This document shows, in pieces, positions 5,368-25,385 of a stretch of 59,438 nucleotides of DNA (position 1 is its first letter; every line of letters starts with the position of its first letter). The stretch spans positions 1-59,438 of the forward strand of contig VGYC01000020.1 in NCBI GenBank assembly GCA_016873095.1, written 5' to 3'. Both the position numbers and the translations under genes were made by a program. The notes beneath the pieces are model-generated. The model did not search any database and was not told the origin of the DNA. It saw only the letters and a list, made by a program, of their open reading frames with translations. The stretch comes from Planctomycetota bacterium. GTDB taxonomy: Bacteria; Planctomycetota; Planctomycetia; Gemmatales; Gemmataceae.

Positions 5368-5423
5368 GTCGTCCTCACTAGATTCCTTGAGCCGCGAAAT
5401 TCATGGTGCCTGAGTCAAGTCTT

Positions 5424-5502
5424 GTAGCGGAACTCGTAAGAGTTCCGACAACCGGGGACACGTCGCCAACGCTTCATCGGAATTCTTGCGAATTCCGCTA
5501 CA
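5424..5502. repeat. REP-like inverted pair, family A (copy 1)
   Basis: Two copies of a short imperfect palindrome face each other. One is at 5424-5449 (GTAGCGGAACTCG then TAAGAGTTCCGAC). The other, in opposite orientation, is at 5478-5501 (CGGAATTCTTGCG then AATTCCGCTAC). They are separated by 28 bases. Each unit folds by itself (GGAAYTC/GARTTCC) and the pair can fold together. The same unit recurs at 46040-46064 and as another inverted pair at 53483-53553. The block lies between two same-strand genes, downstream of the gene ending at 5531 and upstream of the CxxCH giant. Confidence 0.8.
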
Positions 5503-5525
5503 ACGTCGTCGGGTCTGAGGCGGAG

Positions 5526-5546
5526 CCTCGCTAGCGCTTCGGGCTC
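5526..5546. repeat. Half copy of palindromic repeat family B forming a gene's 3' end
   Basis: The sequence CCTCGCTAGCGCTTCGGGCT matches one arm of the inverted repeats at 6171-6221 and 23979-24030. It supplies the last codons and the TAG stop of the gene at 5531-6280, so the protein ends EVSPKR. This suggests that insertion or capture of a repeat arm set the C terminus. Confidence 0.6.
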
Positions 5547-6280
5547 ACCTCAAGCAGCAGTTCATACGCGGGCTCGCCCTTGCTGCCGGGACGCAGGCGC
5601 AGGAGCAGGCCGTTTTCGTCGGCCCAGGCCGTGTATTCACTCTTGTTGCGCAGGTGGATGACGAAGCGATCAGCCATGCGTTTCTTGCCGTCCACTTCGA
5701 TGTTGTCCTTGCCGACGCGCTCGATGGTGAACGTCAAGCGCAGCCAGTCTTTGCTGGGATGCAGCCAGATTCCGGGGAACGACTGCTTGCCTACTTTCGT
5801 GCGGTCATAGCGTCGGCACATGAGGAACACGTCGGTCCAGTCCGGGGCGGAGGTGACGATCACACCGGCCGGCGGGACCTTCAGCTCGGACTTCTTGCCG
5901 TCGGCCAGCGTGATCGTGGCAAGGCTGGCGCCGGCGCGAAAACTGGCGACGAGTTTCTTTTCACGCGCTGCCTGCGTGACGTCGGCCGCTAGCAGTTGGT
6001 CGCGCACGTCATAACGCGCGGAGACGGTTAACGCTCCGGTAACGGAAACGATCGACCAGCCTTTGTCCTTGTCGTTGCGGGTCACGACGAAGTTGCATTC
6101 GTTGGTCTTGCCTTTGGCCGTCACGCGCAAGTAGCGATATTCGCCTGCACCAGCGCCGGGGTCCTGCACCAGCCCGACGCGTGAGCGAGGGTTCACGCCT
6201 CCCTCGCTCACGCGTCGGGCTTGTGCAACCGCGTCGCCGAAGTCGGCGAACAGCAACGCCACGGTCAGAACCACTGTCAT
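5531..6280 (-). CDS. Secreted hypothetical protein with repeat-derived N-terminal segment and C terminus
   Basis: A 249-residue protein starting at the ATG at 6280. It has an N-terminal signal peptide (TVVLTVALLFADFGDAVAQA). Straight after the likely cleavage site comes ARRVSEGGVNPRSRVGL, encoded by a perfect 21-bp inverted repeat (6171-6191/6201-6221). The rest is beta-rich with no recognised domain (VFLMCRRYDRTKVGKQSFPG, then GIWLHPSKDWLRLTFTIERV). The last residues come from another half repeat. It starts 10 bases downstream of the amidohydrolase stop and is probably in the same operon. The function is unknown. It is probably exported to the periplasm. Confidence 0.75.
   Translation of the reverse strand: MTVVLTVALLFADFGDAVAQARRVSEGGVNPRSRVGLVQDPGAGAGEYRYLRVTAKGKTNECNFVVTRNDKDKGWSIVSVTGALTVSARYDVRDQLLAADVTQAAREKKLVASFRAGASLATITLADGKKSELKVPPAGVIVTSAPDWTDVFLMCRRYDRTKVGKQSFPGIWLHPSKDWLRLTFTIERVGKDNIEVDGKKRMADRFVIHLRNKSEYTAWADENGLLLRLRPGSKGEPAYELLLEVSPKR
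6171..6221. repeat. Perfect 21-bp inverted repeat inside a coding sequence (family B)
   Basis: The arms at 6171-6191 and 6201-6221 are perfectly complementary (second arm CCCTCGCTCACGCGTCGGGC plus T) with a 9-base loop. The element is read in frame as ARRVSEGG...RSRVGL in the gene at 5531-6280, directly after the signal peptide. A degenerate intergenic copy is at 23979-24030 and a half copy at 5526-5546. Confidence 0.9.
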
Positions 6281-21547: not shown

Positions 21548-23908
21548 TTACTTCGCCACGACTTTCTCGCCTTCCACCACGTCGGCAGCGTGGGCCAGCT
21601 CGATAATCTCGTCGGTGCTCGCCGGATCGACGGCGCGGCAGCTGGCGGTGAGCTGCTCGGCGATGTCGCGCAGGTCAGCTTGCCAGTCCTGCAGGGTGAT
21701 GTCGGCGGGGCAAGCCTCGGCGAACTCGCCACACAGCAGGATGAGCCGCAGACAATGGCGGAAGATGATGCCCTCCTGCTTCACCAGGTCGCGAGCCGAG
21801 ACGTATTGGTTGAAGTTGCCACCGTAGCGCAGCAATTCGCCCGCCGCCCAGACGGCATGCGTGTTCACGTCGTCCACTTCTGGATATTGCGCGTCGAAGA
21901 GCAGCCGCAGCTTCTCGGCCAGGAACGGCGGATGCTCCCACGCTTCGTCAAATGATGAGCCATCGTCGTCGTCTTCTTCGCCCTCGCCAGGGGTGGGTCG
22001 AGCGATCATCAGGCCGCGGCGAATCAAGTCCTCGTCCAGCCGGTTTCGCGCCAGCGGTCCGGGCGGCAGGTATTCCTCGAACGGCACGCGCACCTGCCGC
22101 CACAGCGAGCGCGGCACTTCCAGCACGCTCTCCAGCGCTTGCAGACGCTCGTCGCGATTGGCGATGCCGAGATGATCGAGCAGAAACGCGCCATAAAGCG
22201 GATGGATGCCGCGGAAGACCAGCAGCTTGGATAGCTCGGCGGCGGGATGTGCCAGCTCGGCGGAGTATGCGGCCACGGGAGGGCGAGGCTCCTGCCGAGC
22301 CGATTGGGAAGGGATCTTGGTTTGCGGCTCGGCGGGAGCCTCGCCCTCCCGTGCCTCCAGCGCCATCAATTCTTTCGGCGGCTCCGGTTCCAGCCGTACG
22401 AAGCCGCCGCGGGCGAGGGTGAGCAGCATGCGGTCGAGGTGCTTCTCGCCGGCCTTGATGCGTGGCTCGTCCATCAGCCGCTTGCGCAGCACGGCCCTCA
22501 CCCGCGACACCTCCGGCGAGATTGACAGCAGATACGCCAGGAGCCGCCAGGGGATGTTGCCCTTGCTGTAAAGCTTGCCCGGCGGAGCGGCTTGCAGTTG
22601 CTTGAAGTTGCTCTCGCTCCAGTAAAGGCGATTGTCGTTGCGCGTCGGCCGTTTCTTCTTGAGCGCCTTCTTCTGCTTCAACAGGCCGGGGTCGCCGGTC
22701 TTCTCCGGGATGGCGTCGTACTTCTCCTTCCAGCGGAGCAGCTTGACATCGTCCTCGTGAGCGACGGCGATGACGTAGCCCTTGTCGTCGTACTGCGGCC
22801 GGCCTGCCCGGCCGAAGATCTGCTGGGCCGTGCTGGCGTCCACCAGCTTCTGCTTGCCGAACGGCCCCTTCACCAGCGACGTCAGCAACACGGACCGCGC
22901 CGGCAGGTTGATGCCGGAGGCCAGGGTCTCCGTGCAGATGACAACGGCCAGCAGCTTGCGCGTGAACAGGTCCTCGACCACGCGACGATACTTGGGAAGC
23001 AAGCCCGCATGATGCACGCCCACGCCCCGGTGCAGCATCTGCTTCATCTTCGGGCCGACGCCTTGTGTCCAGTCGAGGCGGTTGATCTCGGCGTGTAGCG
23101 CCACCTTCTGCTGCTCGCTCACCAGCGGCAAGCCCTTGAGCTGCTCGGCGATGCTCCAGCACTCGTCGCGGTTGAAGCAGAAAACCAGCGCCGGCATCTT
23201 GCGATGGACAGCGTCTCCCTTGGCCATCGACACGAGCTCCTCGTTGAGAAGCTGATCGCCCACCCATTCATAGGTAAGCGGAATCTTGCGTTCCTTGCCT
23301 TCCACCAATTGCACCTTCCGGCCATGACAGCGCTCCAGCCAGTTCATGAACTCGAGCGCGTTGCCAACCGTGGCGGACAGCAGCAACAGCCGGACGTGCG
23401 GCGGCAGCAAGCTCAACGACAGCTCCCAGACGATGCCGCGCTCCGGATCGGCGAAGCTGTGGAATTCGTCCATGACGACGCTGTTCACCTGGCTGAAGTC
23501 AAACGCCTCGCGGTGCAGCAGGCGATTGAGCAGGATCTCGGCGACGACGGCCAGGATGCGTGCGTCGGGATTGACGCGGCGATTGCCGGTGACCAGGCCG
23601 ACATCCTCCGCCTTGAAGCCCCAGCGGATGGCGCTGGCCTGCATCTCCTGAAACTTCTGCTCGGTGAGGGCGATGAGCGGCGTCGTGTAATACGCCATCT
23701 TGCCCGCGTGCAAGGCCTCGAAGAGGGCGGCCTGGGCGATCAGCGTCTTGCCCGTCCCCGTCGGCGTGCACACCAGGACACCCTGGTCGGAGGTGAACCA
23801 GGTGAGCAGGGCTTCTTCCTGAACCGGGTAGGGGGTGTACGGAATCTGCTCGAGGTATTTCTCCGCCAGATCATCGCGCGAGATGGGTGGGGATTCTGTT
23901 CCAGCCAT
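21548..23908 (-). CDS. Ski2-like DEAD/DEAH-box helicase with an in-frame palindromic repeat
   Basis: A 786-residue helicase from the ATG at 23908, preceded by AGGAC; an in-frame GTG six codons earlier is less likely. Motif I CTPTGTGKT is at residues 47-55 and motif II is DEFH (VVMDEFHSF). Motif III is LLLSATVGN. The second RecA domain has HHAGLLPKYRRVVEDLF, ETLASGINLPAR and QIFGRAGRPQYD, which are Ski2/Mtr4/Hel308-type. The C-terminal third is helical and lineage-specific. Residues about 519-545 (REGEAPAEP...RQEPRPPV) come from a 28-bp inverted repeat inside the gene and are probably a surface linker. RNA or DNA unwinding is the family role. Confidence 0.88.
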   Translation of the reverse strand: MAGTESPPISRDDLAEKYLEQIPYTPYPVQEEALLTWFTSDQGVLVCTPTGTGKTLIAQAALFEALHAGKMAYYTTPLIALTEQKFQEMQASAIRWGFKAEDVGLVTGNRRVNPDARILAVVAEILLNRLLHREAFDFSQVNSVVMDEFHSFADPERGIVWELSLSLLPPHVRLLLLSATVGNALEFMNWLERCHGRKVQLVEGKERKIPLTYEWVGDQLLNEELVSMAKGDAVHRKMPALVFCFNRDECWSIAEQLKGLPLVSEQQKVALHAEINRLDWTQGVGPKMKQMLHRGVGVHHAGLLPKYRRVVEDLFTRKLLAVVICTETLASGINLPARSVLLTSLVKGPFGKQKLVDASTAQQIFGRAGRPQYDDKGYVIAVAHEDDVKLLRWKEKYDAIPEKTGDPGLLKQKKALKKKRPTRNDNRLYWSESNFKQLQAAPPGKLYSKGNIPWRLLAYLLSISPEVSRVRAVLRKRLMDEPRIKAGEKHLDRMLLTLARGGFVRLEPEPPKELMALEAREGEAPAEPQTKIPSQSARQEPRPPVAAYSAELAHPAAELSKLLVFRGIHPLYGAFLLDHLGIANRDERLQALESVLEVPRSLWRQVRVPFEEYLPPGPLARNRLDEDLIRRGLMIARPTPGEGEEDDDDGSSFDEAWEHPPFLAEKLRLLFDAQYPEVDDVNTHAVWAAGELLRYGGNFNQYVSARDLVKQEGIIFRHCLRLILLCGEFAEACPADITLQDWQADLRDIAEQLTASCRAVDPASTDEIIELAHAADVVEGEKVVAK
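22275..22352. repeat. 28-bp inverted repeat inside the helicase gene (family D)
   Basis: The arms at 22275-22302 (ACGGGAGGGCGAGGCTCC, then TGCCGAGCCG) and 22325-22352 are complementary at 27 of 28 positions with a 22-base spacer. The element is read in frame through the helicase as GEAPAEP on one arm and RQEPRPPV on the other. No stop codon or frameshift results. Confidence 0.9.
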
Positions 23909-23978
23909 GATTGCGTCCTGCGGCACGTTGTATGGAATCGGGGCGACGAAGACTGTAGCCGCACGTCTGGAACGGTCA

Positions 23979-24030
23979 GAACCCGAAGCGTGAGCACGGG
24001 TACTGCTTCCCTCGCTAACGCCTCGGGCTC
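23979..24030. repeat. Intergenic copy of palindromic repeat family B
   Basis: Arms at 23979-24000 (GAACCCGAAGCGTGAGC...) and 24009-24030 (CCCTCGCTAACGCCTCGGGC plus TC) form an imperfect inverted repeat. It lies between accC and the helicase gene. The arm sequence matches the perfect repeat at 6171-6221 and the half copy at 5526-5546. Confidence 0.7.
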
Positions 24031-24038
24031 TGTTAACT

Positions 24039-25385
<1,347 letters not shown>

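Follow-up and report, generated by a model that had tools for sequence, protein, structure and literature searches.

A probable REP/REPIN-type palindrome in frame within a planctomycete gene, and its likely TnpA_Y1 transposase

A palindromic repeat lies in frame within a protein-coding gene of a planctomycete of the family Gemmataceae, and a second arm of the same repeat family provides the last codons and the stop of that gene. The repeat is present in many copies, is spread across planctomycetes, and is associated with transposase genes in related genomes. The frame across it is open, and nothing alike is found in four homologues of the host protein. Very probably, it is a non-autonomous mobile element of the REP/REPIN type, mobilised by an arm-flanked TnpA_Y1 protein and translated where it falls in frame. 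The original prediction had left the identity of the repeat unstated; most likely, it is a REP/REPIN of an HUH/Y1 transposase. The window referred to below is the whole stretch of DNA that was analysed, namely the 59,438 nucleotides of contig VGYC01000020.1 (assembly GCA_016873095.1).

The palindrome occupies positions 6171-6221 and is assigned to neither strand. Its two 21-bp arms (6171-6191 and 6201-6221) match each other perfectly as reverse complements, carry the feet ACCAG and ACAAG, and are separated by a 9-bp loop (6192-6200). In the fold, the outer pairs TGCAC...GTGCA lengthen this hairpin to 6165-6227, giving 63 paired bp with one mismatch, and the DNA strand 6162-6230 has a folding energy of -36.8 kcal/mol (z -11.1). 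The host gene (5531-6280, minus strand) codes for 249 residues. These comprise a signal-peptide-like start recognised by eye, the 17 residues encoded by the element directly after it (ARRVSEGGVNPRSRVGL, residues 21-37), a conserved domain, and a C-terminal SPKR coded by a REP. This REP is the single arm CCTCGCTAGCGCTTCGGGCT at 5526-5545 (plus strand, core GAAGCGCTAGCGAGG, foot GTGAG), a member of a second subfamily; on the minus strand, this copy reads SPKR followed by the TAG stop. Taken alone, the stretch folds unremarkably (z 0.12). A degenerate inverted arm pair with CAGA feet, also unstranded, is found at 23980-24029, with arms at 23980-23999 (3 mismatches) and 24010-24029 and a fold z of -2.9. 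It sits in the gap between two called minus-strand genes, 21548-23926 and 24039-25385, about 10 bp from the 3' end of the second. With no more than 3 mismatches allowed, the window holds three matches to the 20-base arm, where 0.02 would be expected. All three features (the perfect in-frame inverted repeat after a signal-peptide-like start, the arm supplying last codons and stop, and the degenerate copy between two genes) had been announced by the original prediction. Sequence and translation confirm them, with slightly different boundaries for the arm (previously 5526-5546) and for the degenerate copy (previously 23979-24030). The host product matches DUF6134 at 21.2 bits, under the 27.9 cut-off. 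Just downstream of the gene, another inverted repeat is present at 5422-5503 (TTGTAGCGGAACTCGTAAGAGTTCCGA / TCGGAATTCTTGCGAATTCCGCTACAA, 89% complementary, with 28 nt between); it contains GTAG, and possibly represents a GTAG-tagged REP family.

Four homologues of the window protein were found in a search of 58 other genomes. As judged by eye, all four have an N-terminal hydrophobic stretch, followed by about 7-17 residues and then by a conserved YLR; in the window protein, this interval holds the 17 REPIN-coded residues and 12 more. Insert-like sequence is absent from all of them, and the alignment has no single clean gap at the insertion site. At the C terminus, the homologues run on for 10-15 unrelated residues past a shared LxLE/LxLA motif, and the window protein has VSPKR there. 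This is the pattern that would be left by a REPIN inserted at one end and a REP at the other. The comparison agrees with the original prediction: neither a lack of further genomic copies nor the same protein sequence encoded by unrelated DNA was found. The relatives include no genome of the same genus, so an empty insertion site was not seen. The insert is probably translated and tolerated by the host protein. It could be argued that the element escapes translation, with a true protein start farther downstream and a frame that is open through the element only by accident. A GTG codon at residue 38, just past the element, could indeed serve as the start of a shorter product that lacks the signal peptide, and many REPs at ORF 5' ends are reported to fall outside the true gene (PMC3733652). 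Such a start would, however, cost the protein the signal-peptide-like segment that lies upstream of the element and shares its frame, and a hydrophobic segment ahead of YLR is present (again by eye) in the four homologues as well. An untranslated element is unlikely, and a REPIN read as part of the protein is the interpretation followed here.

In the source genome (G000; 8.36 Mb, 548 contigs), the arm has 68 matches at 3 mismatches or fewer, against 2 for a reversed-pattern control, which substantiates the earlier claim that a genomic repeat family contributes twice to one protein. Its copies fall into two subfamilies. Those of subfamily A (typical arm CAGAGCCCGACGCGTNAGCGAGGG) form inverted pairs with a spacing of 1-12 nt, and those of subfamily B (typical arm CTGAGCCCGAAGCGCTAGCGAGGGC) are single or paired about 47-59 nt apart. 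By core type, the 6171 element belongs to A and the 5526 arm to B. The consensus arm of A folds at -7.5 kcal/mol (z -3.7) and that of B at -4.5 kcal/mol (z only -0.9). A short imperfect hairpin unit found both singly and in inverted pairs is a trait of REPs and REPINs. A CnGA foot (CnGA plus A or G, before CCC) is present in 55 of the 74 arms in the stretches taken from this genome, mostly as CAGAG, CTGAG or CGGAG; the copies in the window gene are without it, having GTGAG at 5526 and ACCAG/ACAAG at 6171. The original prediction had also called two contributions to a single protein unusual, and this part does not stand. Random placement would give this genome about 0.2 close pairs (700 bp or less), with a P of 0.18 for one or more, another planctomycete protein (locus L205) has two in-frame copies, and PMC3733652 describes double REP insertions. 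The double contribution is therefore real without being exceptional.

When 45 elements of the source genome were classified, 34 proved to be intergenic, 7 lay within an ORF, 3 overlapped a 3' end and 1 a 5' end; the count and sorting that the original prediction had proposed turned up further copies, most of them between genes. Among 134 elements in loci from named genomes, the corresponding numbers are 122, 8, 3 and 1, and in the loci of one relative (G035) all 35 elements are intergenic. Altogether, 191 of the 214 elements are intergenic and 15 are inside an ORF, in sequence that is only 13-21% non-coding. Since the coding density of the loci is 79-87%, the copies must be strongly kept out of genes. 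For this classification, genes were called with our own codon-score script rather than a published caller, and duplicates and elements within 150 nt of a locus end were omitted. Gaps between genes also differ by orientation, with elements in 54 convergent versus 24 divergent ones (p 9e-4). The strong intergenic bias and this excess at converging 3' ends are what would be expected of RNA hairpins beneficial to the host, selected at gene 3' ends as transcript-end or mRNA stability signals, with mobility merely a matter of history. The stop codons supplied by some arms fit such a role, as does a palindrome maintained by matching changes in both arms: among 120 distinct named elements, the variable positions of the two arms agree far above shuffled pairing, to about 10 nt outside the core, in a shuffling that keeps relatedness in. 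Copying of the element as a unit would give matching arms equally well, however, and a host function sits poorly with the patchy presence of the repeat (105 of 297 genomes), with copies inside ORFs, with single arms, and with arms beside transposase genes. We find it quite improbable that such hairpins explain the family, and retain a mobile REP/REPIN that selection has left mostly between genes.

The copies inside genes deserve closer attention. The 7 in-ORF cases of the source genome include two single arms (L045 and L059), and one of those in the named loci (L168) is uncertain, since repeating the gene calling gave a different ORF there. In-frame arms use several reading frames, yielding ARRVSEG, SPTRERV, NPKRERG, TRSVSEG, PEALARG and others. 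The clearest case is a protein kinase of the source genome, whose Pfam kinase domain holds the element, with HRDIKPANLLL on one side and VKILDMGLA on the other; against PknB, a 17-residue gap opens at the element in two pieces, of 11 and 6. An acyl-CoA carboxylase (L188) was considered as a clean insertion and set aside. With 54 residues, its linker is longer than in any of 24 homologues (35-49; 25 proteins in all), and because this linker varies naturally the case argues only weakly for insertion. In the same variable linker, a carboxyltransferase homologue (L329) has RHPLPDGRGS, a peptide that is presumably repeat-coded.

The exact core arm is found in 105 of 297 genomes sampled from the class, in up to 405 copies, whereas the control gives at most 1 per genome and strand. 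At 1 mismatch or fewer, the arm is present in 17 of 41 relatives, the richest of which (G014) has 222 arms. A pattern scan of named genomes gave at least 119 stretches, the first 80 of which were used in checking for short imperfect hairpins, single and in inverted pairs. Among the matches listed, 117 have planctomycete titles, with genera that we take to belong to the planctomycetes, and 2 (loci L197 and L203) come from a single Acidobacteria-titled MAG (QHZP), and may reflect real spread or mis-binning. The repeat family and its wide spread seem to be little described: in literature titles and abstract openings, outside subscription journals, no description of the repeat inside planctomycete genes was found.

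A candidate nuclease emerged from the PF01797 (Y1_Tnp) genes. Those of the source genome were rejected as mobiliser, with no arm at 3 mismatches or fewer at any of 5 loci. Those of six arm-rich relatives were also set aside as a group, with arms at just 1 of 30 loci; this one, in G035, led to the TnpA family used below. The G035 gene lies between three arms, and its protein scores above the Pfam Y1_Tnp cut-off; its matches to the IS200 and REP-transposase models of NCBIfam fall short of theirs. A Y1 gene flanked by the same repeats is a REP/REPIN trait, seen here in relatives and not in the source genome. Relatives of the G035 protein exist in 147 of the 297 genomes of the class (E≤0.001). When 30 genomes were each represented by their best TnpA locus, 21 of these loci had arms within about 1.5 kb (92 arms versus 0 for the reversed control), and nine were arm-free at 2 mismatches or fewer. 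In a second set, 30 TnpA-like loci drawn from the 41 relatives and including distant members, 7 have arms at this threshold and 23 do not (25 arms versus 0 for the control). G014 is one of these 7, and exact arms adjoin its TnpA gene (L297). Over the 297 genomes, 74 have both arms and TnpA, 31 arms only, 73 TnpA only (of the 147 with TnpA, these are without an exact arm) and 119 neither, giving a p of 8e-8 with E-value exponents rounded and relatedness uncorrected. In alignment A1, which holds 28 of the 30 proteins (L277 and L283, with short open frames, are omitted), N94 and H95 are nearly invariant, and H97, W132, Y153 and Q158 are invariant. The class 3 TnpA_Y1 motifs NHVH, W[TA] and Y----Q appear in this alignment, as compared with the published motif rather than with its authors' profile. 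The feet beside the TnpA genes are TCAGAG in G013 and GTAG in G035, and beside most TnpA genes of the first 30-locus set they differ from CnGA (TAG, ACAAG, TAAC). This association points to a TnpA_Y1 nuclease as the enzyme that would mobilise the arms. Two of the loci have features of their own. At L273 (1477-2007), provided that the GTG start has been chosen correctly, the TnpA frame opens with VSPKRKRG, the in-frame reading of one of its own flanking arms, and at L283 (1390-2335) arm pairs that alternate between arm variants are arrayed next to the TnpA gene.

The source genome itself has only distant TnpA relatives, with profile E-values of 2.3e-8 and 5.1e-8, and no arm at 3 mismatches or fewer is present at its 5 Y1 loci or at its best profile match (L313), six loci in all. 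Its copies probably date from an earlier active phase, as no transposase flanked by arms was found in the assembly. One of its Y1_Tnp genes (locus L036) has a different short palindrome, CACGGCTGGCGCCGTGGGCT, at 1912 (plus strand) and 2058 (minus strand), on one flank (1912-2077); this gene and its palindrome are perhaps a second REP-transposase pair. The source genome is one of 16 genomes, among the 56 with at least 20 exact arms, that have no TnpA at E≤1e-10. A profile search of 12 of these 16 returned no match at all in 9, including G159, a genome in one contig that is 100% complete and has 54 exact arms. Either the nuclease was lost after a burst of copying, or something else can move the arms.

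These arm-rich genomes without a TnpA_Y1 match, together with perfect inverted arms around a short spacer, could be taken to indicate the MITE of a classical double-strand (DDE) transposon, in which the terminal inverted repeats are the arms and the IS transposase that moved them has been lost. A search for a gene-sized element bounded by arms in G159 came up empty among the listed positions: the listed arms are single or paired at a start-to-start distance of 26-34 bp (316 bp in one case), and since distances of 0.4-5 kb do not occur between any two of them, no gene is enclosed. Terminal repeats of this kind are also hard to reconcile with arms that are found alone or paired, the pairs having the spacers of 1-12 or about 47-59 nt seen in the source genome, and with HUH/Y1 genes flanked by arms. 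A DDE-type MITE is very improbable, and the TnpA_Y1-mobilised REP/REPIN remains the reading that we adopt.

On this reading, each arm, made of a foot and CCCGAMGCGYNAGCGAGGG, would fold into a small imperfect hairpin, and an inverted pair of arms into a long one. An HUH single-strand nuclease of the TnpA_Y1 family, near class 3 by motif, would cut, copy and paste the arms, probably on single-stranded DNA. Selection would then leave most copies between genes. Copies that land in tolerant linkers without breaking the frame could survive and be translated, and those at gene 3' ends could supply a stop. In the window gene, a REPIN would have entered behind the signal peptide, its arms and loop providing 17 residues, and a REP would have replaced the last residues with SPKR and a stop.

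Mobile repeats of this kind are already known. What the analysis adds is the definition of the arm, the likely nuclease, the presence of the repeat in 105 of the 297 genomes of the class, and the cases read inside proteins. A broader view is conceivable, though less likely than not: a single REP family with a near-fixed core of 17-19 nt may have been retained by, or exchanged among, many families of the class, and perhaps an acidobacterium, seeding peptides of 17-30 residues and stop codons. Some planctomycete proteins would then be partly built from one mobile palindrome, which can persist even where the genome has no identifiable nuclease. The question raised is how one core has endured across so many lineages, such genomes included. 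The palindrome is now linked to a little-studied group of HUH nucleases, whose DNA substrate becomes definable, and proteins with natural in-frame insertions should help in studying where protein folds accept added peptides.

Among known systems, class 3 TnpA_Y1 proteins are described mainly from Planctomycetes, Acidobacteria and Proteobacteria, with flanking structures that have a CnGA foot and can reach high copy number, reportedly about 600 in Solibacter (PMC6006769). The present family resembles them in its NHVH motif, W followed by T, and Y----Q, in the multicopy hairpins adjoining the gene, and in its planctomycete hosts. The CnGA foot is shared in part, by 55 of the 74 arms from the source genome but not by the two copies in the window gene. 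The family differs in that Q is mostly preceded by A or G, where the published motif has E, and in that the feet at most TnpA genes of the first 30-locus set are TAG, ACAAG or TAAC, unlike the CnGA of the “atypical secondary structures”. The account of class 3 hairpins drawn from PMC6006769 gives neither an arm sequence nor gene insertion. The in-frame palindromes of Rickettsia (RPE), as described in PMC3733652, also lie within host ORFs and can be doubly inserted, and no dedicated host transposase is reported for them there. By that description they are set apart by their host and tag (CGTC for RPE-4 and RPE-6), and by the cognate transposase that the present repeat has in relatives. With the REP/REPIN-RAYT systems of the GTAG superfamily (PMC3733652; PMC3116915), the repeat shares short imperfect hairpins, inverted pairs, high copy number, a mostly intergenic location, arms flanking a Y1 gene, and some copies in frame. 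It is unlike them in the source genome, where the GTAG/GTGG foot is not seen, and in its transposase, which is of another class by motif. Several REP families are known in the planctomycete R. baltica (PMC3733652), and given the GTAG foot in G035, the present family may be identical to or overlap with one of them. In other bacteria, in-frame REPs of 20-30 residues, stops supplied by REPs, and double insertions in one gene have all been described (PMC3733652).
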